NCBI RefSeq assembly: GCF_036785885.1
Contig: NC_092322.1
Coordinates: 12,050,466 to 12,114,465 of the forward strand
DNA: 64,000 nucleotides
Reading direction: 5' to 3'
Source of the DNA: Coffea arabica
Lineage: Eukaryota > Streptophyta > Magnoliopsida > Gentianales > Rubiaceae
In this document: positions 1-54,986 of the stretch, in pieces
How the letters are laid out: each line of letters starts with the position of its first letter
How positions within the stretch are numbered: position 1 is the first letter of the stretch
Notes under the pieces: generated by a model
What the model saw: only the letters and a program-made list of their open reading frames with translations
Told to the model about the DNA's origin: nothing
Database searches by the model: none
Made by a program: the position numbers and the translations under genes

Positions 1-3000
1 GTCAGCCATGATTCAGAAGATAGAAGATCCTGTAGCAAATCCTGTTGCGTATACGGGGCTGGTGATCACTGTAACCCTTTTTGCTGGTATCTTTCAAGCT
101 GCCTTTGGAGCATTCAGGTAAATCAAATTCTTGTGAGTTGGAAACATCCTTGAAGACATCACGAACTTACACTTAGGATGTGGATTCATATTATAGGTTG
201 GGATTTCTGGTTGATCTTCTATCCCATGCTGCCATAGTTGGGTTCATGGCTGGTGCAGCTATCATGATTGGCCTTCAGCAACTGAAGGGACTGCTTGGAA
301 CTACTAAATTTACAAACAAAACTGATATTATCTCTGTCCTAGCAGCTGTTTGGAGATCAGTCCATGATTCTGTAACTTTTTTCTTCCTATGCTTTCTTAT
401 CCTGATTCGTAGAAGATATTCCTTGGCTTATAATATATAAGAGGAAGCTACTTAACTGCTGCATATTTTCTGGCAGTGGAATCCACTGAACTTCATACTT
501 GGTTGTTCATTTCTCAGCTTCATCCTAACAACCAGATTTCTGGCAAGTAACATATTGCAAACAGTAGTTCTATTCTAGTTAAAGTACACCTCTATTTATC
601 TTTCTATATCAATTATTGTGCATATGAACATAATCCCCAAAATTCCACTTGTGCCGTAAATTCAGGGTCGAAAAAAGAAGAAGCTTTTCTGGTTATCAAC
701 CATTGCACCTCTCACATCTGTGGTTTTATCAACACTCATTGTCTTCCTAACGAGAGCTGATAAGCATGGAGTCAAGATAGTGAAGCATATCAAATCTGGG
801 TTGAACCCTATTTCTGTTCACCAGTTACAGTTGAACGGACCACATACTGCTGAAGCTGCCAAAATTGGACTTATTGTTGCAGTTGTTGCACTTGCGGTGC
901 ACATCTTGATAACAACTCTGAGTATTGAATAGCTTATTCTTACGTTCTATAGTTTTACAATGATGTACAATGTCAAACTTCAGGAAGCCATTGCTGTCGG
1001 ACGATCGTTTGCATCAGTGAGAGGATACCACCTTGATGGAAACAAAGAAATGGTGGCAATGGGAGTCATGAATGTTGCGGGATCACTAACTTCTTGCTAT
1101 GTTGCAACAGGTGACCTTTCCCTTGTTGGTTAATAGTCCTACACCTTTCCCTTGTTTTTGCATGTACCAATCTAAAAGTCACAAAACCAACTACCTTCCA
1201 AGTGAGGTAAAAAAATTGTCTAAAGTTTTTTTTTCTCTAATTTAATCGTAAAAAGGTGGAAACACGGAATGAATATTTGCCTTTTGCAAGACCAGGTATA
1301 TTTTTAAAAGTGAGAAATTTAAACCATAATCCAAATTTAGTCAAATTGCAGGCCTTTTTAATTTTTTGGGTAAATTACACTTTACCTCCTGTGATTTAGT
1401 ATTTTTGTACATAACTCCCTTATAGTTTCAAAAACTATACATAACCCCCTCATGATTTGGATTAAAATGTCAAAGTAATGAAATTTATAATCCATAACCG
1501 AGTCATCTAAAATATGAAAAATACTCCTACGTAAAGTTGAAAATCATTTATTAACCACATGGGTGTTATGTGTGTATTTAAAAAATCATAAGGGAGTTAT
1601 ATGGTAAAGTATAAAACTATAAGGAGGTTATATGATAAAATATAAAACTATATGAGGTTAGTGCGCCATATATATAATGTTTATATATTTTGGTCTCTTC
1701 AGATATTTTAATTTTTAAACAAGGGTAATTTCGATATTTTCAAAAGTTCTGCTACGAATGATCATTTTCGCCACTTTGAGATTTTAATTCAAATCATGAG
1801 ACTGGTTATGTATAATTTTTGAAACCATAGGGGGTTATGTACAAAAAAAAAAAAATATTAAACCATAGGGGGATAAAATACAATTTGCCCTTTTTTTTTG
1901 GGTTTAACCTGACATATTGTCTTACGAACTCAACTTCAAGGATTGTCTTTACACATCTAGACCAGATATTTTTATCCAATACTTTCCTGGTAGTTTGCTT
2001 GTCTCTTGCAAACAACCACCTGTATGAGTTTCTTCAAGACATGTTGCCCAATATTCAGTTTCCTAAAACCTCTATGCAGGTTCATTCTCAAGGACTGCTG
2101 TTAACTTTAGTGCTGGCTGTGAAACTGTGGTGTCAAACATTGTAATGGCTGTGACAGTTATCATATCACTGGAATTGTTCACACGACTCTTGTTCTACAC
2201 TCCGATTGCAATCCTTGCTTCAATTATTCTTTCAGCTTTGCCAGGACTGATTGACCTAAATGAGGCTTACAACATATGGAAAGTTGATAAGCTAGACTTC
2301 CTTGCTTGCATTGGAGCATTTCTTGGAGTGTTGTTTGCATCTGTCGAGATCGGCCTACTAGTTGCGGTAACACTTTTGAAATCCTTGTTACTTACAAAAT
2401 TTTGATCTGAGCTTTAGCTATTCATTGTGTTACACCTGGTACGTGTTGTCTGCTTTGTTGGGGCGTTGGATGCCAAGGGTAAAAATCAACTTCTCAAAGG
2501 AAAATTTTGGAATTTCAACTCCTGTGATCCTGGATTTTCACATAAGTTTTACATTTACCTTTCATCCCTAACTTTGGGCCTACTTTCAAAAACACAGTTG
2601 AAGCTTGTGTTCGTTGAATCCTCCACCCAAACTTGTTATCTTTGATTTTTAAGCTCTATATGGTCCCTGATAATGCTACGAAACCTGAGTTGCATTATTA
2701 TCATAAATGATGTTCACCAAATCTTTTCTTGAACAGAAAACTGTCCAATGTTTTTTACCAAGAAAAATGCTGCATTTTAGGAAAAATATTGTTGCTATAC
2801 CATAGTTTTGAACTGAAATTTTGTACAATGTGTCGACAGAAAGATGCAGAGGAAAAGAAAAATTCATCCATCATTTCAAAGAACAAAAATCTGCCTGCAG
2901 ATATAGTGTAGCTAAACCCCATTTTTCTAAGAGGTCTTCCATAATACTTCAATCAGTGTGAGACTCCTAAAGGCATGCAGACGCTACAAATTTTTTACTA

Positions 3001-4661
3001 CATTTATGGCATTTATACTATAGAATTACTGCCCTAATACTTCTACAAATTTATGACCGGCTTTAAGTTGTTTTCAGTAGCTTATGAATTGTTTAGCTTG
3101 TTATGTATCAAAGTCACGCTAAATTTAAAATGACTATATGCCCACATGAATCTGCTGTTAATACTGATGGTCGAAAAGGATTTTTCCCAGAACTCATCCA
3201 TGAGCACTCGAACAGGAACCTGCAGGCAAGCAGGGAAAAGTGACTTAAGAATACTTACTTGATCCTATACTGCAGCTAATTCTTTAAGTTAATCAGTTGA
3301 TGTGTAGATTATGAATTGATGATGTTCTAATTATCAAAGTTTGTTATGCAGGTAGGGGTGTCATTTGTAACGGTAATATTGAGTTCCATCCAGCCAGGGA
3401 CAGAAACTCTCGGGAGGATTCCTGGAACTGATATATTTGTGGATGTAAATCAATATCCGATGGCTGTTGAGATCCCTGGAATTCTTGTTACCAGACTCAA
3501 GTGTGCCTTGCTCTGCTTTGCAAACTCTAATTGCATCAAAGAACGGTACTGCATAAACTCAAGTGAACATCAGCACATATTCATTGCCATATATGTTCAA
3601 GGGTAAAGTCATCCATTTTTTTTCTCTCTGAATTTGGCAAAGGATACTGCAACTGGCAACTGGAAAGCAGGAGGTGGGTGATAAAGGCAATGCCAATGGA
3701 AAGACCCAATTAATAGTATTTGACATGTCAAGTAAGTTCTTTTACAACAGAAGAATCTTTGTTTATGCCAATGGATTTCAGATAAATAGCAAGCTAGATG
3801 TGGAGGAATAGCTGAGGAATCTATAGCATTTGAAAAACTCAACAAGGCTTGGTTTTGTGTTGATTTTTTGGGGCATAAACTTGGTAACAACACCTTAGTG
3901 TTGCAAAAATGGCTTATAAGAAACTTGTATGACGCTGGAAAATGAGCTTATATTATTCATCCATCAACTCACTATTTATAATGTTTACAAAGAAACAAAC
4001 ACACACAATTTCAGCTAACAATTCTTTAAAACATCTCAACAAAAAGCTACTTGATAACATGATCTTCTACCTAACAAATGATACCTAAAATATTTGTTAA
4101 CAAATCAATATGATTATTTTTTGTTAACAAATATCCTAACAAGACTTATTCTTCTACTAACTAAATTATTCTGATATCAAACGCTATCTAATAAAATCTG
4201 TAGGAAAAGTTGGCGTATCTCAACATTTTGATACAAGAGAGATTTAAATATTTCAATTGCATTTAAGTTTTCTGGCTTGCCTTCTAGATTCATAACAATT
4301 CAGCCCTTTTCTTCAAGAAGATTGCTGATTTTTTTTTCTTTTCCTTTTAACTCTTACTGGTGATAGATTTGATGAACATTGACACTACGGGGCTTGCTTC
4401 TCTGAAGGAATTGCATAACAGCCTAGCATCAGAGGGGATAGAAGTAATCGATATCTTTTGTCTAATTTCCAGGGGACAATAAGACCAGGTTCTCATTTTT
4501 TTCTTTGTCTCATAAATTGTTTGCAGTTTGCTGTGACCAATCCAAGGTGGCAAGTCATTCACAAGCTAAGGCTGGCCAACTTTGTGGACAACATTGGAAG
4601 GAGGGTCTTTTTAACTGTTGGAGACGCAATTGATGCGTGTATTACTGCTAAAATCGCCTAA
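1..4661 (+). CDS. SULTR2: Group 2 sulfate transporter (SULTR2-like), 3' part
   Basis: Proton-coupled sulfate transporter of the plasma membrane (SLC26/SulP family). The 5' end lies outside the window. Ten exons are readable: <1-117, 197-371, 477-542, 666-896, 984-1110, 2080-2366, 3352-3545, 3643-3731, 4367-4443, 4527-4661; all joins keep frame and give about 498 residues. The membrane part carries the family blocks [38 protein letters not shown] and [19 protein letters not shown]. The last exons form the cytosolic STAS domain with [34 protein letters not shown] and ALLCFANSN are typical of group 2 (low affinity, vascular) rather than groups 1 or 3. Intron 543-665 begins with GC, and the 969-bp intron 1111-2079 holds a transposon. 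The stop is TAA at 4659-4661. Family is certain; group 2 is from remembered homologues. Confidence 0.93.
1368..1890. mobile_element. Non-autonomous TIR transposon inside a sulfate transporter intron
   Basis: The left end (from GGGTAAATTACACTTTACC) and the reverse complement of the right end (GGGCAAATTGTATTTTATCC) match over about 120 bp, including a shared internal stretch reading TACATAAC. No coding capacity. Flanks are T-rich and match at about 7 of 9 bases, so a 9-bp duplication as made by MULEs is possible but not proven. It lies wholly in the intron between exons ending at 1110 and starting at 2080, which explains that intron's length. Confidence 0.7.
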
Positions 4662-9470: not shown

Positions 9471-14689
<5,219 letters not shown>

Positions 14690-28633: not shown

Positions 28634-30939
28634 ATGGGAAACATGGTTAAGCCTTTCCTGCAGGGACGAAGGCTCCTTGAAACATTTTTGGTTTTGTGTC
28701 TGTTGGTTTACGTCATGGATCTTCCATCAGCAGCTAAGGCTGCAGGCAAAGTCAATAAACATGTATGGGATGTGAGATACAATTACGTGTCTCCAGATTG
28801 CTATAAGAAGCTGGCTATTACGATCAATGGATTGGTTCCTGGACCAACCATCCATGCAGTCGAAGGGGAAACAGTTGTCGTGCAGGTTACAAATAGTCTG
28901 GTAACTGAAAATGTTGCCATTCATTGGCATGGAATTAGACAGGTCAGTATAATACTATCTTATCCATTCATTAGCTGATGATTTGGCAGTAGGAAGAATT
29001 ACGGTAAAATTTGTCATTGGCAGCATACCAACAACTGTTTTCTGGTTGCAGATTGGAACACCTTGGTCTGATGGAACAGAATCTGTCACACAGTGTGCAA
29101 TCCAACCAGGGGATACCTTTGTATACCAGTTTGTTGTAGATAAAGTAAGCTTCTTTTTCCTTATAATTTTAGTGGAAGAAATGATTGAAAAAATGGACAT
29201 TAAGGACATTGGTTAGACTGCCACTTTACAGCAATTTAATCAATGTCTGATCAGTTTCATCTTAGTATGATATCTTTTTGTGGAATCAAGTTTTCTTTGC
29301 ACTATTTAGTGGTAAGTTTTGAAGTTATATGTTTTTCTCTTTTACTTCTTTTGCAGGCTGGAACATATATGTATCACGCACACTATGGTATGCAACTAGG
29401 AGATGGGATTTATGGCATGATTCGTGTGAAGGCTGCCCATAAAGAACCCTTTTCCTATTCATCTGAGCATGAAATCCTTCTAAGTGATTGGTACCACAAG
29501 AATGCATACGAGCATGCTATTGACCTCTCTTCAGAGCCCTTTGTTTGGGTTGGGGAACCTAATGTAAGATGATGAAGTATACAGTTCATCTTGCTTCTGA
29601 AATATAGTAAAAACATTATTACTTGCAACTATATATGAGGGCTACATGTATTTAGATTGTCTGTAAGCTAATGATTTTCTATTGATGTTGTGTTCCAGTC
29701 AGTTCTCATACAAGGAAGAGCATTTGCTTGCAATGAACCAGGAACTGAAGCTGGCCAATGTAAAGAACCAAATCGAAAATGTTCACCTTTTTCATTGAAC
29801 GTAAGGCCTGGCAGGACAATCCGACTAAGGATTGGAAGCTTGACTGCTTTATCAACATTGAGCTTTGAAATTGAGGTAATTAACCTTGAATATGTCGTTG
29901 CACAAGAATCAACTCTCTGCATATTTCATTGGTTCTGTTTCTTTGATTCATATAGATTTTTCTCATAATGCAGGATCATGAAATGACTGTTGTTGAAGCA
30001 GATGGTAACTATGTGGAACCATTTAAGGTCAAACATCTGTATCTCTACTCGGGTGAAACATATTCAGTCCTAATAAAAACTTCCCCAAAAAAGGATCGTT
30101 CGAGAAACTACTGGATGGTTGCGAAAGTAGTCAGCCGCGAAAGCAGCACCCCAAGTGGATTAGCCATCTTAAACTACAATTTCAATCCTCCTTTGGCTCT
30201 ACCTCCCACTGATCCACCTGCAGGACCTCATTGGAACGACACTTCAGATCGAATTGATCAAAGCGTAGCAGTCAAAGCGCACCATGCTTATCTTAACCCT
30301 CCTCCAAAGAAATCAGACAGGACTATTATTCTGCTCAATACACAAAATAAAATAGAAGGAAAAGTCCGCTGGTCCCTCAACAATGTCTCCCTGAACCTAC
30401 CCCATACGCCATATTTGATTGCCCTGAAGGAGAACTTATCCTATGTTTTGGATCACAAAATTCCTCCAGATAGCTATGATGTTGAAAACTATGATATCCA
30501 TAGCGTTCCCAAGAATACTGAGGCTCACCCCAGTACCGGTGGATTGTATAGATTGAAGTTCAACTCAATTGTGGATGTCATTTTGCAGAATGCAAATACA
30601 ATGACACCTAATGTTAGTGAGACTCATCCATGGCATCTTCATGGCCATGATTTTTGGGTGCTGGGATATGGCAGGGGAAAGTTTAACATGGCAACCGACA
30701 CGGCTAGCTACAACCTGACAAATCCAATCATGAAGAATTCAGTGCCTCTTCATCCTTATGGATGGACTGCACTGAGATTTAGAGCTGATAATCCAGGGGT
30801 TTGGGCTTTCCATTGCCATATTGAGTTTCATTTCTTCTTGGGAATGGCTGTGGTTTTTGAAGAAGGGATTGATCAAGTTGGAGAATTGCCTGATTCTATT
30901 ATGGGATGTGGTGAAACTAAACCGTTTGTTAAGCCATGA
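28634..30939 (+). CDS. AAO: L-ascorbate oxidase-type multicopper oxidase, copy 1
   Basis: Secreted blue copper enzyme that oxidises ascorbate in the cell wall with reduction of O2 to water. Five exons (28634-28942, 29052-29144, 29357-29563, 29699-29875, 29974-30939), all GT-AG, 583 residues. A hydrophobic signal peptide (about residues 14-36) is followed by three cupredoxin domains. Copper motifs are complete: HWHG (H97, H99), HAH (H141, H143), HPWHLHGH (H480, H483, H485) and HCHIEFHFFLGM (H542, C543, H544, H548, M553), so the type 1 site has its axial Met. Trp in FVWVGEP and in VRWSLNN correspond to substrate-contact Trp residues of cucumber ascorbate oxidase, which favours ascorbate oxidase over laccase. 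It is clearly more diverged from copies 2 and 3 than they are from each other. Possible polyadenylation signal AATAAA at 30966. Confidence 0.95.
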
Positions 30940-36184: not shown

Positions 36185-37622
36185 TGACAGGGTGTCGAAG
36201 CCTGTGCAATAATAAAAACCTGCTCAAACTAAAATTAATTTCTATAGATAGTGGTAAGTAGGGTCGAATCCACAAGGACTAGGAGTAATTGTTTCTTTTT
36301 AAATTCCCAATAACAAAGGGGTGTTTTTATGCAGAAGGTGACAATAAAAGAAGTTCAAATAAAATCTAAGAAACTACTAAAAATTAAATAATAAATTACT
36401 AAAATCAAATGAATGATAATTAAGGATCTAGCCAAGGAATAACTTCAGCAATGGTTCACCTAATTGATCATCGATAAGCAAAGGCAATTCCAATTATTTA
36501 CTAATAAATAGGTTATAACTGCCAAACAAGCGATGACAGTCAACCCCTCCTTACTGTGTCGATGATTAAGGTACGCCCGTTAATCACTGCTCTAATTGAG
36601 AAATAATCCTAGGTACGCCCATAGAATTTAATTCCCCAATTACCTTACGTATTAGAGGAGCCCTATTCTAATCAAATAACGCACTACCAGGGTTATTTTA
36701 GATTAAGCCGCGTATTCCCCTGACACGAACCCAATCATGCCAGTCGTCACTATTTTGAGACAATTAAACAATTACGGATTTAACGTACCAATTGACAATA
36801 GATTACCAAATTAACTAATTATCCAGATCCAAGACAATCAATTAATTAAACAATCATAAGCACTGTAATCAGGAAATATGCGAATATCAATAAATAAAAG
36901 AAAAAGATAAAATTAAATCGATCTCATAATTTTAGGTGACCCAAAGCACCCGTTGTCCCTTGACTAGGGTGAGAAAATTAGTTCATAGTTGATGAACAAA
37001 ATCCACAAGAAATTGAAGCAAAAGCTGCGGCCATCAATTCGGAAGTTGGGCGAATTCAATTCGTCTATTTCTTTAAGAAAGCTACAAAAGGTACTTCATA
37101 GTTTTCCTTCGGTCTGGACATCCGCAGGAACCAAACCACTAAAAGACGAAAAAGGAAAAGTCAAAAGCTTTCCAGTCCTTTTCTCATCACATTCACGGAG
37201 AAAACCAAAAGGGAAGAAAGGCATACAAAGGAAAAGTCAAAAAGAAAACAAGCCTAAGTTACTGAACGGAAATTTCAAATTTCTATCTAAATCCTATTCC
37301 AATGCTCTCCTTGCGCAGCGGCCCCCTTCCCGAGAGGAAGAAGAAGACTCCCACTTCAGCCCTTCGTTCCTCCTTTTATTGCTGTTCTCTGCGAATTATC
37401 AAAAAGGACTTGTATCTCCTTGTTCCAAAAATGCCCTGAATGCCTGCTACTTGAACTCTTTCTTGATAACTGTCAAATCGGTACTTATTATGGTATTTTC
37501 GTTCTATTCCCTGAAATATATATAAAATACTAAAAGTGAGTAGAATCTAACAATTAATTCAGATTGGGTCAGGTAATAGGAGAAATTAATAATAAAATAA
37601 ATGATAAAATCGCAACCTATCA
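36185..37622. mobile_element. Solo-LTR-like fossil nested in the MULE
   Basis: 1438 bp starting TGACAGGGTGTCGAAGCC and ending CGCAACCTATCA, i.e. TG...CA ends, with the 5-bp direct repeat AGTAA on both sides (36180-36184 and 37623-37627). No second LTR and no internal retrotransposon region lie next to it, so it reads as a solo LTR left by recombination. Family not assigned. The age cannot be given without a second LTR, but it is younger than the enclosing MULE-type element. Confidence 0.65.
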
Positions 37623-37943
37623 AGTAATATTTAACAAGGCCTATATTCATAGATATACAGTAATTTTCATTATTATGTTAGGGATGCTGCTATTTTTAAA
37701 TATTATCCGTCTTGAGTGGTTTTAGGGACAAACAGACAAATTAAGAGAAAAATGATAGTGAAGTGAAACCCCAAAAGGGATTTATTGAAGTAAAACCCTA
37801 AGGGTATAATTGTCATTTTGATATTTTCGTTATGCGGGATTAGAGTTGACTAACGACTTAGGGAATAAAGTGAAAAAAAAAATGACGTTAGAAGGTAAAG
37901 TGTAAAACTGATTAAACTTAAGGAAAGCTTTTGTAATTAACCC

Positions 37944-39187: not shown

Positions 39188-41393
39188 ATGGTTGAGCTTC
39201 TCCAGTGCAGAAGTTTAGCTAAAAACTTGGCTGGATTGAGCCTCCTTTTGTGTTTGGCAGCTATAGCAGTCCCTTCTGTTGAAGCTAAAGTTCGATATCA
39301 TAAATGGGAGGTGAAATATCAGTATAAGTCTCCCGATTGCTACCAGAAACTGGTAATTACCATCAATGGAAGAAGTCCAGGACCAACCATCAATGCTCAG
39401 CAAGGTGACACAGTTATTGTTGAGATCAGAAACAGCTTGCTACTGGAGGATGTTGCTATCCATTGGCATGGAATCCGACAGGTAATTAAGAGCATTATGA
39501 TATATTTATCTTCACTTTGTTCCTTTGAATGCACTGGATTCTTGATGTAAGTATGTAGCTAGATGTTAATATCTATTTTTGTTGATTGGTTGCAGCAAGG
39601 AACACCTTGGGCTGATGGAACAGAAGGGGTCACCCAATGTCCAATTATTCCAGGAGATACGTTTACATACAAGTTCGTAGTAGATAAAGTAAGTCCAACA
39701 GTTGACATAGTTTCTTTACTTGATTGCAACATACTACACTTGCCATAAAGTTTATCCGAATTTTAAAATAGGTAACTGTTATTGCAGCCTGGAACATTTT
39801 TGTATCATGCACATTATGGTATGCAAAGAGGAGCAGGGCTATATGGACTAATTAAGGTCTCACTTCCTGCTGGAGAGTCTGAGCCATTTTCTTATGACTA
39901 TGATCGCAGCATCATCCTTACTGATTGGTACCACAAGAGTACTTATGAACAAATGACTGGGCTCAATTCAATACCCTTTGTTTGGGTTGGGGAACCTCAG
40001 GTTATCTTTTGCTTAAATCTACTGCTAGTTTTGATCAGTTTATGTTCAAATGCTCTAGGCTAATGGTCTCACTCCAATATTTTCAGTCAATTTTGATACA
40101 AGGGAGAGGGAAATTTAACTGTAGTACACCAGGGACTGAAGCTGATCTTTGCAATGCAACAAATCCAGAGTGTTCCCCTTTCTCATTGACAGTTGTTCCT
40201 GGCAAAACATACAGGCTGAGGATCGGAAGCTTGACCGGTCTTTCAGCCTTGAGTTTTGAAATAGAGGTACAAATTACTATAGTTTCTTGCAAATTTTCCT
40301 CTATCAAGAATTTTTAAAGTACCCCTTCACATGCTTAACCAGCTGGACCAAAATTTTTAATTTCCAAAAGCTTATCCCCAGAATAAACAATCAAAGCTGA
40401 GTCAGGCGATACTAATTTATGGATTATTTAATGCAGGGTCACAATATGACTGTTGTTGAAGCTGATGGCCACAACGTCGAGCCGTTTGTGGTCCAAAATC
40501 TTTTCATCTACTCTGGAGAGACATACTCCGTTCTAATCAAGGCTGATCAAGACCCTTCGCGAAATTATTGGGCTAGTGCACATATTGTTAGCAGAAATAG
40601 CAATACTACAAATGGATTAGGCATCATCAATTACTATCCAAATCATCCCAAAAGAAATCCCCCCACGAGTCCCCCGGTTGGACCTCGATGGAACGATACA
40701 GCTCCCAGAATTGCTCAAAGTCAAGCAATCAAAGCTCTCAAAGGCTACATCCATACCCCTCCACAGACAACAGATAGAGTAATTGTTATGCTCAACACAC
40801 AAAACAGGATAGATGGTCATGTCCGTTGGTCTGTCAACAATGTCTCATTTGGCCTTCCTGAGACACCTTACCTCATAGCCCTTAAACAAAATTTTCTACA
40901 TGCTTTCGAGCAAACCCCTCCTCCAGAAGGATACGATGCTGCCAACTACGACATCTATAGTGTTGCCAAGAATGTAAATGCCACGACAAGCAACTCGATT
41001 TATCGGCTCAAGTTCAACTCGACAGTTGATGTAATCTTGCAGAATGCAAACACAATGACTGTGAATAACAGTGAAACACATCCTTGGCATCTTCACGGGC
41101 ATGATTTTTGGGTCCTGGGCTATGGTACAGGCAAGTTTAACATCTCAACTGATCCCAAGAAGTACAACCTTGTCAATCCGATAATGAAGAATACAGTGCC
41201 TGTTCATCCTTATGGCTGGACTGCATTGAGATTCAGAGCTGATAATCCAGGTGCTTGGCTATTCCATTGCCATATTGAAGCTCATTTCTTCCAGGGCATG
41301 GGAGTGATATTTGAAGAAGGGGTGGAGAAGGTAGGAAGATTGCCCACATCTATAATGGGATGCGGTGAAACAAAACGCTTTTTCAAGCCGTAG
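39188..41393 (+). CDS. AAO: L-ascorbate oxidase-type multicopper oxidase, copy 2
   Basis: Same five-exon structure as its neighbours: 39188-39481, 39596-39688, 39788-40000, 40087-40266, 40437-41393; 578 residues. Signal peptide about residues 1-33 ([20 protein letters not shown]), mature start near KVRYHKW. Copper ligands are complete: H92/H94 in HWHG, HAH in [15 protein letters not shown] from H475, and [12 protein letters not shown] with C538, H543, M548. Trp of FVWVGEP and VRWSVNN are kept. Exon 1 differs from copy 3 at roughly one base in eight, but from about the middle of exon 4 to near the end of exon 5 the two copies are almost the same, including intron 4. The 3' UTR has a short tandem repeat of TATGTAGCACAAAAGATTC (near 41420 and 41456). 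Confidence 0.95.
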
Positions 41394-42287
41394 AGAAATA
41401 AAAGAAATACAAGCTGAAGATATGTAGCACAAAAGATTCAAGCCGCTTTTTCTTGTATGTAGCACAAAAGATTCTTGAAATCCCTTATTTTTTTCAATAA
41501 TGTTTTCCCGAAACAAAAGTCTAGACTTTTGGTTTATATTTTTTTTGCATTATTGTTTGATCGGCATTTGCGGCGAAGGACAGTTTCTCTATGCTTTTTA
41601 ACTTCAAAAACTGTTTGATTCTTTAGCGGAAATTCTCTCTTTCTTTGCGCAAATAAAACTTTGATCAAGCTAATAAAGTGGTTAAGCAAGTCAAGTATGT
41701 CAAATACTGTATTTTATTCCCTCCTCCCCTCTAATTTAGGGAGGATTTTCCTTGTTAAGTTCTGGATAATTTTCTCCTAGGCACCATTTTCACATATCAC
41801 AACGGAATCTTTCATCCTATTGTGCTACTCTCTATCCCATTTTTATTATATTATTATTATTTTTCATAAACATCATATTTTAATTCTTTTTTGTTTCTTA
41901 AGATCCAATAACTATTAACAAAATAGTGAAAAAATAAAAAATAAAAGAAAGTCGTGAAAAAGAAAAAAAAAGGGAGTGAATAAACAAAAAATAGTAAGGG
42001 CAATTTTGTCTTAAAATATTAAATATGGAGGCAAAATGCTTATTTAATGAGTTCAGAAGGGGTAAAATGTAACCAAGGTAAAGTTCAAGGGGTTTGGTGC
42101 ATTTAACCCTTAGGCATGAGTCAATGGAGCTTCCCATGCATGATAGGCAACTGCCTGCATGGAGCTTTCCTGGTCGTGACCTGTGATGCTAACACATGAA
42201 TAAAGCCTTCCTTTAGGCACAAGTCGATGGAGAATCTTCCACTTCATCGAGTCTACTTGGTTGTTCTTAGATATTTTTTTTTACGCG
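41394..42287. other. 3' flank of AAO copy 2 with one end of a TIR element
   Basis: The first about 370 bp align with the 3' flank of AAO copy 3, marking the end of the duplicated unit near 41760. At about 41980-42113 there is a sequence ending GGTTTGGTGCATTTAACCCT, the right end typical of the MULE-like elements seen elsewhere here; a matching left end is missing. Two similar blocks containing AGTC(A/G)ATGGAG follow (about 42115 and 42219). Confidence 0.45.
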
Positions 42288-43143
42288 CAGGGGCGGAGCC
42301 AGAAAAATATCTTAGTGGAGGCAAAAATAACAATAAAATTTTTTACCTACTTTTTTTCTAATTTTTAAGCAAAAAAAAAAAAATCTCATGCATAAAATCA
42401 CCATTTCACAAGTTAAAATATTTATCAAATAACCCATTTATTAGTTATTACATTAACTAATCAATTTTCAAATTTCTTTAAAACAGTAATAGCCTCATGC
42501 TCTAGAAATATATTTGCAAACAAATTTAAAATAATAATAATAATAAGAAGTAATTGTTTAGAACCTGATTTTGATGGTCTCCTAAAGTTGGTGAAAAGAG
42601 CTGCAAAATGTGGCGGATCCAAGTTCTAGAAGATCAGTTGATTCTGGTGTAATCTCTAAATAGGATGAAGTGATCAAAAGAAAGAGTAACAAGCTTTGGT
42701 TGTGGAAAAAAAATGGCCCTCCTATTGGGGCGTGGGGACAACCGAGAGTCTGATGAGAAAAGGAAAATTGGGGAGTTGGGACAAAGGAAGTAAATGATAA
42801 TTGGATGAAGTGATAAAAAAAAAAAATAGTTGGCTTGGGTGTGGAAGAAGAGGAGGAACCAGTTATTAAGGGAAATGGGGGACCACAGGAGTAAAGGGAA
42901 CTTGGGGAGTGAGGACCAAAAGGAATGACTGATATAATTGGTACTTGGCCCGTTGGCCTTGTTGGTGGAAAAATGGGAACTAGAGGGGGCAAGTGAATGA
43001 TATAAATTTTGCGATCCATTCATTCACATTTTTTCTAAAAAAATTCTGAAAATATCTTTAAAATTATATCAAAATTATAGATATATTATAGAAATTTAAG
43101 GGACACCGTAGCGGCCCGTGCCCCCACTTTAAATCCGCCCTTG
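42288..43143. mobile_element. hAT-type non-autonomous element with exact 8-bp duplication
   Basis: 856 bp. Left end CAGGGGCGGAGCC and the reverse complement of the right end (CAAGGGCGGATTT) form hAT-like terminal inverted repeats. TTTACGCG flanks it exactly (42280-42287 and 43144-43151). No transposase; a minus-strand frame of 145 codons inside has no recognisable homology and is not called a gene. Confidence 0.88.
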
Positions 43144-44460: not shown

Positions 44461-44970
44461 TCTCCTACCCCTTTTTTTTAGCGGAAGGTAAAAATTACGA
44501 AATTTCTGTTCTCAAATTAGTCTCTATTTCTTCTGTCTCTTCTTTATATAGCTGTCATGTGTCTTTAATTTTTTGATAATCCAAACTCAAACAAATCGAT
44601 AATAATCGGTTAACAAGTTTACTCAAAACCAAAACTTGCAGTCTTTTTCTTCATGCAAACTAGAGTTGAAAAAATTTTGATTAGGGAACCACCGCTTGAT
44701 TTATCCAAAGAAAAAAATAGTTTTAAGTTATTGGAACCGCTTGATTTATCCAAAGGCAAAAAAGTTTTGAATTATCTGTTTTACTTGGTTTTGAGTAAAC
44801 TTGTTAATCAATTATTATTGATTTGTTTGAGTTTGTGTTATTAAAAGATTAGAGACACATGACAACTATATAAAGAAGGAACAGAAAGGATATAAACTAA
44901 TTTGGGGACAGAAAATTCGAAGCCGAAAATTACCCGCATGAACCCCGGGTGAGCACCCTTTTTAATTGCC
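44461..44970. repeat. Long inverted repeat (foldback) upstream of AAO copy 3
   Basis: Left arm about 44480-44632 and right arm about 44783-44940 are inverted copies: CAAACTCAAACAAATC(G/A)ATAATAAT, TTAACAAGTTTACTCAAAAC and TCTTTATATAG(C/T)TGTCATGTGTCT each occur in one arm and inverted in the other. Arm identity by eye is around 85 percent; the loop is about 150 bp and contains a two-copy direct repeat starting CCGCTTGATTTATCCAAAG (about 44692 and 44737). The right arm ends about 290 bp before the start codon of AAO copy 3. It may be a foldback-type transposable element; no certain flanking duplication was found. Confidence 0.75.
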
Positions 44971-45229: not shown

Positions 45230-47435
45230 ATGGCGGCTGAGCTTCTCCAATGCAGAAGTTTAGCTAAAAACTTGGTGGGCTTGTGTTTGTTTTTGTGTTT
45301 GGCATCTGCAGCGTTTCCTTCTGTTGAAGCTAAAGTTAGATACCATAAGTGGGAGGTGAAATATGAGTACAAGTCTCCTGATTGCTACAAGAAGTTGGTG
45401 ATGACCATCAATGGAAGAAGTCCGGGACCAACCATCAATGCTCAGCAAGGTGATACTATTATAGTTGAGCTCAAGAACAGCTTGCTACTTGAGAATGTTG
45501 CCATCCATTGGCATGGAATCAGACAGGTAATCAAGGAGAAAATCTGACATCTTCCTATATTTCTCTGTTCTCAATATTATGGTTTCTTGATGGTACAAGA
45601 TTTTAATATCTATTCCTATTTATTGAGTGCAGCATGGAACACCTTGGTCTGACGGGACAGAAGGGGTGACACAGTGTCCAATTCTCCCAGGAGATACCTT
45701 TACATACAAGTTCATAGTAGACAGAGTAAGTCCAATGGTTGATATAGTCCCTTGCTTTAATGCTACATGCTTCATTTACCATAGATTTGATCTGATTGGT
45801 AAAATATGTCACTTTTCTTGCAGCCTGGAACATATTTGTATCATGCACATTATGGTATGCAAAGAGAAGCAGGGCTATATGGAATGATTAAGGTTTCACT
45901 TCCTGCTGGAGAGTCTGAGCCTTTTTCTTATGACTATGACCGCAGCATCATCCTTAATGATTGGTACCACAAGAGTGCTTATGAACAAATGACTGGGCTC
46001 AATTCAATACCCTTTGGTTGGGTTGGGGAACCTCAGGTAATTAATGCTTTAATTTAGTATTACAGTTGATCAGTTTTATGCATCAAAAAGCTTGAGGCTA
46101 ATGGTTTTTCTTCAACATTTTCAGTCAATTTTGATACAAGGCAAAGGAAAATTCAACTGCAGCACACCGGGGATCGAAGCCGGTCTTTGCAATGCGACAA
46201 ATCCAGAGTGTTCCCCTTTCTCATTGACAGTTGTTCCTGGCAAAACATACAGGCTGAGGATTGGAAGCTTGACCGGTCTTTCAGCCTTGAGTTTTGAAAT
46301 AGAGGTACAAATTACTACAATTTCTTACAAATTTTCCTGTTATCAAGAATTTTTAAAGTACCCCTTCACATGCTTTACCAGCTGGACCCAAAATTTTTAA
46401 TTTCTAAAAGCCTATCCGCAGAATAAACAATCAAGGCCGACTAGCCAAACACTTATTATCATTAAATATTGAATGTAGGGTCACAATATGACTGTTGTTG
46501 AAGCTGATGGCAACAATGTCGAGCCGTTTGTGGTCCAAAATCTTTTCATCTACTCTGGAGAGACATACTCCGTCCTAATCAAGGCTGATCAAGACCCTTC
46601 GCGAAATTATTGGGCTAGTGCACATATTGTTAGCAGAAATAGCAATACTACCAATGGATTGGGCATCATCAATTACTATCCAAATCATCCCAGAAGAAAT
46701 CCCCCCACGAGTCCCCCGGTTGGACCTCGATGGAACGATACAGCTCCCAGAATTGCTCAAAGTCAAGCAATCAAAGCTCTCAAAGGCTACATCCATACCC
46801 CTCCACAGACAACAGATAGAGTAATTGTTATGCTCAACACACAAAACAGGATAGATGGTCATGTCCGCTGGTCTGTCAACAATGTCTCATTTGGCCTTCC
46901 TGAGACACCTTATCTCATAGCCCTTAAACAAAATTTTCTACATGCTTTCGAGCAAACCCCTCCTCCAGAAGGATACGATGCTGCCAACTACGACATCTAT
47001 AGTGTTGCCAAGAATGTAAATGCCACGACAAGCAACTCGATTTATCGGCTCAAGTTCAACTCGACAGTTGATGTAATCTTGCAGAATGCAAACACAATGA
47101 CTGTGAATAACAGTGAAACACATCCTTGGCATCTTCACGGGCATGATTTTTGGGTCCTGGGCTATGGTACAGGCAAGTTTAACATCTCAACTGATCCCAA
47201 GAAGTACAACCTTGTCAATCCGATAATGAAGAATACAGTGCCTGTTCATCCTTATGGCTGGACTGCATTGAGATTCCGAGCTGACAATCCAGGTGTTTGG
47301 CTATTCCATTGCCATATTGAATCTCATTTCTTTATGGGAATGGGAGTAGTGTTTGAAGAAGGGGTAGAAAAGGTCGGAAGATTGCCCACATCTATAATGG
47401 GATGTGGTGAAACAAAACGCTTTTACAAACCATAG
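45230..47435 (+). CDS. AAO: L-ascorbate oxidase-type multicopper oxidase, copy 3
   Basis: Five exons (45230-45526, 45633-45725, 45824-46036, 46125-46304, 46479-47435), 579 residues, same splice positions and phases as copies 1 and 2. Signal peptide about residues 1-34, mature start KVRYHKW. Copper ligands: H93/H95 in HWHG, HAH in [15 protein letters not shown] from H476, and [12 protein letters not shown] with C539, H544, M549. FGWVGEP replaces the FVWVGEP of the other two copies next to the substrate-contact Trp. Exon 5 shares an identical run of 363 bp with copy 2 (46914-47276 against 40872-41234), then diverges sharply. The duplicated unit continues about 340 bp past the stop. Confidence 0.95.
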
Positions 47436-50192: not shown

Positions 50193-52727
50193 TGTTTCTA
50201 TATCTTTATCCATAAAGGCTCGTATACACAATGAACATTACGTGTATCACTATGATTTGAAAAAGTAACATTAATTGACTTTAATTGTTGATATGCCATC
50301 TAAAAAATGGAAATATTGGTCAATTTATTTCTAATCACGAAAAAGTTTTCAACATTTTTTTCACCGCCCCTGTTTCATTTAGATTCTTTTGTTCGTGACA
50401 TAGTTTTGCCACAAGTAGCAAAGAAAATGAAAACATGAAAAATTAGGTCCGATATGTGTATAATTTTGCAACTACTAGTATGCTTTGTCTTATATATATA
50501 TCTAGCCCTTTAATCATGAAAAATGAATGTTCTTGTTTTTTTGGTTTTTTTTTTCTCTTCTTGTGAAAACAAATAACTTACTTGGAGTAATTACCAAGAG
50601 AATTTTACACTTAGTGTCTGTTTGATAACATAAAAAAGTGCTCAAACTGAATTCATTCGGATATTCAGATGTTTTTGGTGTTTGATAAATAAAATTTTTT
50701 TTGCTGAACTTATTAAGTGATCTTGAATTTGTATGTATTTTTTTTCAGCACAAGAATAACTGAATGCTTAATTTGATAAGAATCAAGAGATTTACTTCAA
50801 CTACTTTATCTTATCTACCAAATCTATCATTGCTTATTAATTACATTCAAACCTAATATTCTCTATCCAAAATCCTTATCTAATTAAACAACCTGACATT
50901 CTCTGTCTAATGGCTTTCTACTTCTATTTTCTCCCTATTTAATGACTTTTTTACAATTTCTCCATGCTCCTCACATCTGTCTACTCCTTATCTTTTTCCA
51001 TCTTTCTACTCTTTCATAATTTTGTCATTTTTTTCCTCCCAATTTTTTTATTGCTACCGTACTCACCGATCTCAATCTCATTATTTCCAATCGATTATTT
51101 GTTGTTTTGCGTCAACATTTTTCCATTGAAGTAATTAAATTTCTATATGATTTGGTGTGAATTTAAAACTTGTTTATTGCAGCTTCCTTTTGCTTATATT
51201 TGGACTTTTCTTATCAAACTCTGATTTAAAAATATATTTTGCACCGATATTTGGACTTTTCCATAATATATATTTCTTCTTTTATAGTACTTTGATTTAA
51301 AAATAAATATTGTCATTTTCATACCTAACAATTTTAAGCTAATTAAATCATAGGTTCTTGTTCAATTTTAAAGGAAATGAAATCACTTCCACAGAACAAC
51401 TTGATCTTACGATTACTCCATATAGGTAAATTTTACTAGCTTCTTGAACATTTTATAAGTCATAATATGCATTGTTCTACCATGTAATCAACAAATCGTA
51501 TAATGGAACAATTTCAAAATATCGACTTGGATAAACAATTATAGCATTGATTTGTCTAATTCTTCTAAGTTATAAATACTGGTGATTATTTGCCAGAGTT
51601 GTTCATGTCCAATAACACTAAATGTAGTTGAAGTGTTGTTACTACCTTTAATTTGTTCATATTTGGCGAAGTGACTTCCATGCTTTTTCATAAAACAAGC
51701 TCATTTTTACCTCTTCAAGTTTCAACAGTTTTCATCTCATCCTTGCAACTTCTTCACAAGTCTCATTTTTGTATAATATAGTTTTACAATTATTATATAC
51801 ACACTATAGATTTATGACAAATTATAGATTATTGAATCAAACTAAATGGTAACAATGACCTTCACCAATACAAAATAACTAAAAGTTGATAAGTTGAAAA
51901 ATGACAAGATGCTAGTTCGCTCTGGTTTAGATTCTTGTTGCTTAGTCGTACGTTAAACTCCCAAAATGGTATTGTATCAATAATAGTTTGTCAGTTTTAA
52001 TATATTTACATATGGGGACTTATATGCAATTGATTTCATTGGGTTTAAATATCATACCAAACTTCTTAGCATTAATTCTTTTACCTATACAAGAAAAGTT
52101 TCAGAACCTTATCTATATTCCATACACATCTCGCGTCGATATGCCATTTTGACCCCAATTACCTTTGGATTGCAATGCTCCCAAATTACCAACCCAAGGC
52201 ACATATTTAGTGCATGCTTTGGGTCAGGAGAACTAAAATTGTAGATGATGATGATGCATTCATTCTTTCAAATCGAAGTGCAACTGCCATTGCTCAAGAC
52301 CCCAACATTGGCCAACTTTTAACACATCTAATGTGGTAATCTCTTAATTATATATCATCAATTAAATTGATCACCGCATCTCAATTAGGAGGTTTAATTT
52401 GTTTATGATCATCTCTGTGTTACATATGAAAGCATCTTTGGTTCCTATTATGCATTAATTTGTGCTTTTAAATTCTTAAAATTACATCGTGTGCATAACT
52501 GCCATCATGTTCTTCCGGCATCATCAGTTGTAAGGTTCATGCGAAATCTGTAAAGCTATAAATTTGGGCAATTCACAATTGTTGTTCTGACAATAGCGCA
52601 GTGAAAGTTGAAAATATATATGCAAATTGAAACTTGGTAATTCAGGATATCCGGGAAATTGTTGTTTAAACATTTATTTTCATTTTGTCATCAATGCATT
52701 CAATTGAACTTTGAATTTGCAAAACAG
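50193..52727. other. Spacer, possible upstream exons not resolved
   Basis: No clear gene. A block starting TGTCTGTTTGATAAC near 50620 looks like one end of a miniature element. Exon-like stretches exist at about 51395-51426 and 52228-52335 (reading TKIVDDDDAFILSNRSATAI between an AG and a GT), which could belong to the gene whose C-terminal exons follow, but their phases do not join directly, so they are not included in a model. Confidence 0.35.
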
Positions 52728-53277: not shown

Positions 53278-53859
53278 CTTGTTTGGCATAATGCTTAGAA
53301 ATTTCAAAAACGAACTTGAATTATACATCTTTTCATCTTCTTTCTCGAATTATTTATGTAGAGGATTGGACAAAATAGTTAGTTAAGCTTCAGTTTATGT
53401 GTTAAAATACCATACATTATTGTTAAGACAAATTTTAAGAGTTGGGACAACTTTCAATTAGCTTGACATGCTTAATTGTTTTGTGTTTTCTATTGATTTT
53501 TTTTTTTATGAAATTACATCTAAATTGAAAGGAAAGATGATTGGAATTCCATTTGCAAAATAAGGTAAAACGTTTTATATATATATATATATTACACAAT
53601 ATGAGTAAGATTATTATGGTTATGGTCCTTGCGTTGAATCGGTTCTAATATTGGTCTTTTAAATTAAATAATTTTTTTAATTTTTGGTCTTTTTGAGTTT
53701 GAATTCTGAATTGTTGATTTTTTTTCCTTGAAAAAGGTTACAAAGATGAAGGTTGTACCATTCTAAATGCATGCCCCAATCATGATATACAAAATGTTTC
53801 ATAGGAAGGTATTTACTAAAAATTTTATTAGTAAAGGAATATCAATGATGCAAAGGAAT

Positions 53860-54300
53860 ATCAAGTTCAGTGCATAGCTATAAATTTTCCTGCTTTCTAT
53901 CCATATTTTTCCATCCTATTATTAGGTCTCGAACATCCTTAAGAATCATATGAACTATATACTCAGGAGAATGCAATGTTTTCTTAAACACCTGTTGATT
54001 TGATTCCTGCTCCACCACAAGTGATACACACTGGCTGCAAATGTCATCCTTTTAACTTGAGAAACATAGTTTTGCTGAGAGCAATGCATGATCATCCATT
54101 GCAATTCTCTATCCCACTCAAGAGTCTGCCTGTAAATCAAACACTTTTGTTGCACTTGTTCCCACACATAGCTGGAATATGGACACAAGAAAAATAGGTG
54201 GCCAAGAGTTTCCATAAATTGATCTTCCTTAAATTGCTTGAGAACTCATAATTGAATCAAGGTGTTTCCTTCCTTAGGTTTCCTCCTAGCTATGTTATAA
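53860..54300 (-). mobile_element. LINE remnant, zinc-binding C-terminal region
   Basis: The minus strand reads METLGHLFFLCPYSSYVWEQ and further VKRMTFAASVYHLWWSRNQ, the pattern of the zf-RVT region found after the reverse transcriptase in plant L1-type LINEs (HLFF.CPY...W and a Trp-rich continuation). Only this part is left; stops follow it and the flanks show neither reverse transcriptase nor a poly(A) tail. Ends are approximate. Confidence 0.7.
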
Positions 54301-54986
54301 ATTGGTGAGAAAATTTTGTCTTAAAGAAAGACAATTAATGAAAGATAAAGATGACTAAAAGGGTTAGAGAATTTGATAGTCCTCTAGGTGTATATAGTTT
54401 GGATGTATGAAGTTCATGATTGTCTATTAGACTTACAACAAATCTATACTATTGCTATAATATTATGGCAGTAAAAGTGCTAAACTTTACCGTCCAGCAT
54501 CCCACTCTTGAAATGATGTCATGTTCTTGAACTATTTTTTAGTGTGATGAAGCTCATAGTGAGTTTATATGATTTTGCTTCTAATTCCAGTTCAAAAATC
54601 CAAACTAAGTCTTCCTTAAATCTTAGTTTTATAAGAGAACTAAAAGTAGAGTCAGTATATCTTTTATCCATTATTAATGCTTTATTTTACAGTTGGGCAA
54701 TGGGGAAGACGTACGCAAACTAGCATTAAAAATGGTAGTTGGAAGTGACCTTAAATTTACAGAAGTTTTGTTCATGCAAGAAATTAATCTTGCCATCCAA
54801 CGTCATACTAGATAGATATGTACAAATTTGCTGAATGCAAAAAAAAAATAACCATAAAAAAAATAAACAAGGAAAACTCCCTAATAAATTCAACTCAAGT
54901 CACTCGTTTTGATCACTCATCCTCCTTGAATCCTCTGGTTTAGCACATTCTCTCTTCTTAATCCTTTTTCGTCGGTCTAGAAAATC

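Follow-up and report, generated by a model that had tools for sequence, protein, structure and literature searches.

In Coffea, gene conversion has been described among the clustered copies of the SH3-CNL resistance genes, as far as the accessible part of the report goes (PMC3113787). Ectopic gene conversion has likewise been described among the tandem HMA4 genes of Arabidopsis halleri, again according to the part of the source that is available (PMC3749932). Here we describe a pair of neighboring genes of Coffea arabica that are nearly identical over part of their length and strongly diverged on either side of it, in the same pattern in both subgenomes. We consider it very likely that this patch arose by interlocus (ectopic, nonallelic) gene conversion between tandem, same-strand genes predicted to encode L-ascorbate oxidase (AAO). 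A literature search for ascorbate oxidase together with gene conversion, or together with Coffea tandem genes, returned no title on this locus, and the only match for ascorbate oxidase with gene conversion concerned a fungus; most subscription journals lay outside the scope of both searches.

Tandem genes predicted to encode L-ascorbate oxidase

The window is the whole stretch of Coffea arabica DNA that was analyzed, 64,000 nucleotides in length (C13:12050466-12114465). A and B are used below as plain labels for C13 and C14, respectively, and not as parental assignments. C13 and C14 behave as homoeologues, with collinear stretches that are 89 to 99% identical and are accompanied by insertions, and a genome search located the family matches on pairs of large contigs. 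The genes under study are as follows.

28766-30935, + strand: AAO copy 1, a diverged third tandem copy (limits of the BLAST match, no gene model)
39188-41393, + strand: AAO copy 2, 578 amino acids (open frame, splice sites, TIGR03388 match)
39188-39481, 39596-39688, 39788-40000, 40087-40266, and 40437-41393, + strand: exons of AAO copy 2 (introns GT-AG)
45230-47435, + strand: AAO copy 3, 579 amino acids (open frame, introns GT-AG)
45230-45526, 45633-45725, 45824-46036, 46125-46304, and 46479-47435, + strand: exons of AAO copy 3

Copies 2 and 3 have five exons each and lie in tandem on the same strand, approximately 6 kb apart. The full-length copy 2 protein scores 954.4 bits against the NCBIfam model TIGR03388, L-ascorbate oxidase (cut-off, 614.8), and 1aoz ranks first among the PDB matches to its exon 5; judged by these matches of copy 2, copies 2 and 3 are taken to be tandem L-ascorbate oxidase genes. 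Both homoeologous copies on C14 are open, with a terminal stop only. Copy 1, whose exon 5 is open and encodes a protein sequence 68% identical to that of copy 2, was used as a distant comparison sequence. A search of the genome with the exon 5 protein yielded 76 places. Three each on C13 and C14 are 68 to 100% identical, a C1/C2 pair is at 52%, and the others are at 46% or less.

Several other features were observed around the locus. One methyltransferase exon in the window (140 residues aligned) is nearly identical to structures 2eg5 and 2efj, the xanthosine and 3,7-dimethylxanthine methyltransferases, which we take to be from Coffea canephora. The segment 42287-43141 is missing from the homoeologous position on C14. 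At least 39 further copies of 42300-43130 occur in the genome at 87 to 92% identity, with 40 of 733 first-look candidates scored; it is a dispersed repeat and probably a transposable element. Between copies 2 and 3, an inverted repeat at 44498-44919, with arms of about 135 bases that are 86% alike, is present on both C13 and C14 and looks like a foldback element. At the threshold used, 36185-37623, 51876-52666, and 53591-54617 have no match in the 30 kb of C14 compared, and they are likely insertions or losses between the subgenomes. A tandem repeat in direct orientation, of about 153 bases and with 97% identity, lies at 14201-14506. A C14 stretch (L007, 3715-4892) with inverted arms that are about 303 bases long and 96% alike is not represented at the corresponding position of the window and is probably an inserted element.

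A homogenized mosaic in copies 2 and 3

Copies 2 and 3 within the window were aligned with MAFFT, and their differences were recounted. The preliminary description had reported differences at about one base in eight in exon 1, about 11 changes in the first 75 bases of exon 4, one in the rest of that exon, 8 in the first 435 bases of exon 5, none over the 363 bases of 40872-41234, and about 18 in the last 159 bases of the coding sequence. The corresponding recounts were 40/294, 12, 1, 8/435, 0/363, and 18/159, in good agreement with those figures. Intron 4 had been called alignable; only its first 128 bases are nearly identical (8 differences), and its last 42 (40395-40436) are at background divergence. 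Because of these 42 bases the left side of the patch is stepped, so that of the two sharp edges originally proposed, the right edge, at 41234/41235, stands, but the left one gives way to steps around an unconverted intron 4 island. The converted stretch is a mosaic consisting of 40159-40394, the 42-base island, and 40437-41234; its pieces and surroundings are listed below, with shared differences being copy 2/copy 3 differences found in both subgenomes.

39788-40000, + strand: exon 3, a possible further old tract (synonymous divergence [dS] of 0.08-0.11, versus about 0.5 in exons 1 and 2)
40159-40394, + strand: converted piece, covering the tail of exon 4 and 128 bases at the start of intron 4 (7 shared differences in 236 bases)
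40395-40436, + strand: unconverted island, 3' end of intron 4 (17/42 differences)
40437-40651, + strand: converted piece, start of exon 5 (4 shared differences in 215 bases)
40652-41234, + strand: converted piece (0 shared differences in 583 bases, 13 other variable sites)
41235-41393, + strand: diverged right flank, exon 5 tail (dS of 0.47-0.55)
46197-47276, + strand: copy 3 partner of 40159-41234
46694-47276, + strand: copy 3 partner of 40652-41234

The dS between copies 2 and 3 on C13 was 0.49 in exon 1, 0.51 in exon 2, 0.08 in exon 3, 1.04 in the exon 4 head (16 sites), 0.04 in the exon 4 tail, 0.09 in 40437-40651, 0.02 in 40652-41234, and 0.47 in the exon 5 tail. The 213 differences over 2196 aligned columns were permuted 20,000 times. 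Uniform divergence along the duplicated unit, which the preliminary description had named as the outcome that would speak against conversion, was rejected (0/20,000): the difference-free run of 363 bases compares with a longest run of 146 in the permutations, the fewest differences in 583 bases were 2 (permutation minimum, 29), and the longest run without a synonymous difference was 121 codons (permutation maximum, 117). The residues coded by 40652-41234 are identical in the two C13 proteins, with 0 amino acid changes, including within a 10-residue motif; differences persist in the N-terminal part of the copies and in their C-terminal HCHIE region. Both the 10-residue motif and the HCHIE motif presumably bind copper.

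The left limit of 40652-41234 (cut 40651/40652) was picked after looking at the data. A Fisher test across this cut gave 0.005 when all sites were used and 0.07 when the sites were limited to introns and third codon positions, and the best change-point model treats 40435-41288 as one segment; an interpretation of 40437-41234 as being of two ages is suggestive only. The same test of 40159-40394 against the rest gave 0.03 on intron and third-codon sites and 0.004 on all sites. More than one conversion event is suggested by the comparison of the older pieces with 40652-41234 (Fisher, 0.005). Exon 3 of the two copies is a possible older conversion tract, its dS being low at 3.5/46 sites versus 40/101 in exons 1 and 2 plus the exon 4 head (Fisher, 9e-5, from rounded counts and a comparison chosen after looking). 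It was not accepted as a firm further tract: its dN of 0.040 was not clearly low beside the 0.078 of exon 1 and the 0.073 of exon 2, and by BIC the seven-segment model that includes this tract (818.7) was tied with a five-segment model (818.1).

The same mosaic in the second subgenome

Over the same stretches, the C14 copy pair showed 40 differences in exon 1, 11 in the exon 4 head, 2 in the rest of exon 4, 13 in the first 435 bases of exon 5, 4 in the 363-base stretch, and 17 in the last 159 bases. Since the C14 copies differ at 4 sites within it, the complete 363-base identity on C13 is partly due to chance. On C14, with 222 differences over 2195 columns, the longest difference-free run was 120 (p 0.0002) and the fewest differences in 583 bases were 11 (permutation minimum, 31); the longest run without a synonymous difference, 61 codons, was only marginal (p 0.045).

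All four copies were compared over the 2195 columns of 39188-41393 in which each is present. Sites grouping the sequences by paralogue numbered 170 outside the mosaic, 7 in 40159-40394, 16 in the island at 40395-40436, 4 in 40437-40651, and 0 in 40652-41234, and the other variable sites in these same segments numbered 15, 6, 1, 4, and 13, respectively. On intron and third-codon sites, 40652-41234 was distinguished from the upstream sequence (Fisher, 3.8e-20) and from the tail (1.7e-8). The genealogy in 40652-41234 is unlike that of its flanks, with 0/13 variable sites grouping by paralogue, and the differences shared by both subgenomes end at 40651 on the left and resume at 41235 on the right. 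Sites that group by subgenome (A2=A3, B2=B3) or are crossed were absent from the 2195 columns of 39188-41393; one A2=A3 versus B2=B3 site falls within 41500-41599, where the 3' flank aligns poorly.

The homoeologues of copy 2 differ at 11/1034 sites inside the tract and 11/1161 outside, those of copy 3 differ at 12/1034 and 5/1161, and the homoeologue dS of the two copies is 0.00 to 0.07 by segment. Private changes in 40652-41234 are unevenly distributed, with 2/13 in subgenome A and 11/13 in subgenome B (p 0.02). The C14 copy 2 (L008, about 1199-3404) carries 8/13 of the private changes in the stretch matching 40652-41234 (p 0.006, uncorrected), 6 of which alter amino acids, and this copy is perhaps under relaxed constraint.

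Age of the patch

The conversion had been described as recent. This is not supported, because the same patch, with the same edges, is common to both subgenomes, which puts the conversion at roughly the time when the parent species split or earlier. Between-copy dS reaches about 0.5 in exons 1 and 2, roughly 1.0 in the short head of exon 4, and 0.47 to 0.55 in the tail. Values of 0.04 to 0.11 apply to exon 3, to the tail of exon 4, and to 40437-40651, and values of 0.02 to 0.03 apply to 40652-41234. Dates were obtained from a simple clock model, with the time since the parent lineages split as the unit. The segment 40652-41234 alone dates to 1.0 (0.8 to 1.3) split times, a value biased towards the split since the absence of shared differences is what defined the segment. 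Taken as one event, 40437-41234 dates to 1.45 (1.15 to 2.25) and all converted pieces date to 1.95 (1.45 to 2.9) split times; 40159-40394 alone gives 3.35 split times (1.8 to the grid edge at 5). The best date lies at or before the split in all versions, and thus the conversion is older than Arabica. The available portion of the genome report places the split of the parent species at 4 to 6 million years ago (PMC11018527). The excess of private changes in B over A, with 8 in the C14 copy 2 alone, strains the clock, and a later conversion in A is accordingly possible.

Gene conversion and its alternatives

The attribution of the patch to gene conversion between copies 2 and 3, made in the preliminary description, is well supported, because silent and intronic sites, and not amino acids alone, are homogenized, the flanks are diverged, and the C14 pair provides an internal control. 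Diverged paralogous sequence flanks the homogenized stretch on either side. Unequal crossing-over needs two exchanges to leave both flanks diverged. We propose that a break in one copy may have been repaired from the other copy as the template, the flanks not being exchanged. This would have taken place in the ancestor shared by both parent species, close to the time at which they split or earlier and perhaps repeatedly, after which the copies would have drifted apart independently. Copy 1 proved too distant to polarize the donor, as, of 68 fixed upstream differences, it agrees with copy 2 at 27 and with copy 3 at 25, and GC content at third positions, examined for donor direction, gave no clear signal. 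Within 40437-41234, copy 1 has the same base at 6/17 private changes, against 3.2 expected (p 0.08), a weak hint of further exchange in which copy 1 would have donated short patches.

It is very unlikely that each parent lineage underwent a conversion of its own once the two had split. The date of 40652-41234 alone does reach slightly below the split (0.8), and subgenome A has few private changes; however, A2=A3 versus B2=B3 sites are lacking in 39188-41393, the right edge and the island are identical in both subgenomes, and the pieces dated together give older ages. Templating by cDNA was rejected as a general explanation because intron sequence is included, the piece 40159-40394 running 128 bases into intron 4 from the very start of that intron. 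Similarity in exon 3 and in the first part of exon 5 extends to the exon borders, whereas introns 1 to 3 and the last part of intron 4 differ. We see a slim chance that part of the mosaic was templated by spliced RNA or cDNA, with 40159-40394 as a separate DNA-templated event; diverged introns that halted ordinary conversion account for the same borders more simply.

Strong constraint or a mutational cold spot in exon 5, acting with no exchange, is highly improbable. Exon 5 does match multicopper oxidase domains, but the homoeologues differ as much inside the tract as outside, synonymous and intronic sites are affected, and the exon 5 tail is diverged. Copy 1, moreover, is about equally different inside the tract, its exon distances to copies 2 and 3 being 0.305 and 0.302 in 40652-41234, 0.326 and 0.321 in 40437-40651, and 0.320 and 0.323 upstream; it is somewhat nearer to them in the exon 4 tail (0.259 and 0.250) and nearest in the unconverted tail (0.233 and 0.226). 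Constraint and a cold spot are disfavored because homoeologue divergence does not dip in the tract and the copy 1 distance in exon 5 up to 41234 is about the same as upstream. An assembly collapse or chimeric contig that placed one sequence in both genes would fit the 363-base identity in one subgenome, but it is scarcely credible, because the second chromosome has the same mosaic and edges with private differences (13 in 40652-41234) and, according to the available part of its report, the published C. arabica assembly was built from HiFi reads (PMC11018527). Conversion in one lineage followed by homoeologous exchange to the other subgenome is equally far-fetched: the accessible portions of two papers do describe homoeologous exchange and conversion between subgenomes for C. 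arabica (PMC11018527, PMC3113787), but homoeologue divergence in the tract is not lowered.

Comparison with known systems

Gene conversion between copies 2 and 3 makes the AAO patch a new example of a well-known, ordinary process. The two subgenomes serve as a built-in control, by which conversion can be told from constraint and placed against the species split. The age of the duplication, if taken from exon 5, would be far too young, with a dS of 0.02 at 40652-41234 versus about 0.5 in exons 1 and 2. Like the SH3-CNL genes, the AAO pair shows conversion of clustered coffee paralogues over similar lengths (1258 and 977 bases there, 1076 here), but the SH3-CNL case, in the available part of its description, concerns resistance genes under positive selection with some inter-subgenome events (PMC3113787), whereas the AAO pair concerns an enzyme gene with a mosaic common to both subgenomes. 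As in the HMA4 genes, coding parts of tandem copies have been homogenized and other parts remain different; conversion among the HMA4 genes is, as far as the accessible text goes, recurrent within the species and linked to adaptation (PMC3749932), whereas in the AAO pair it is old and comprises few events.
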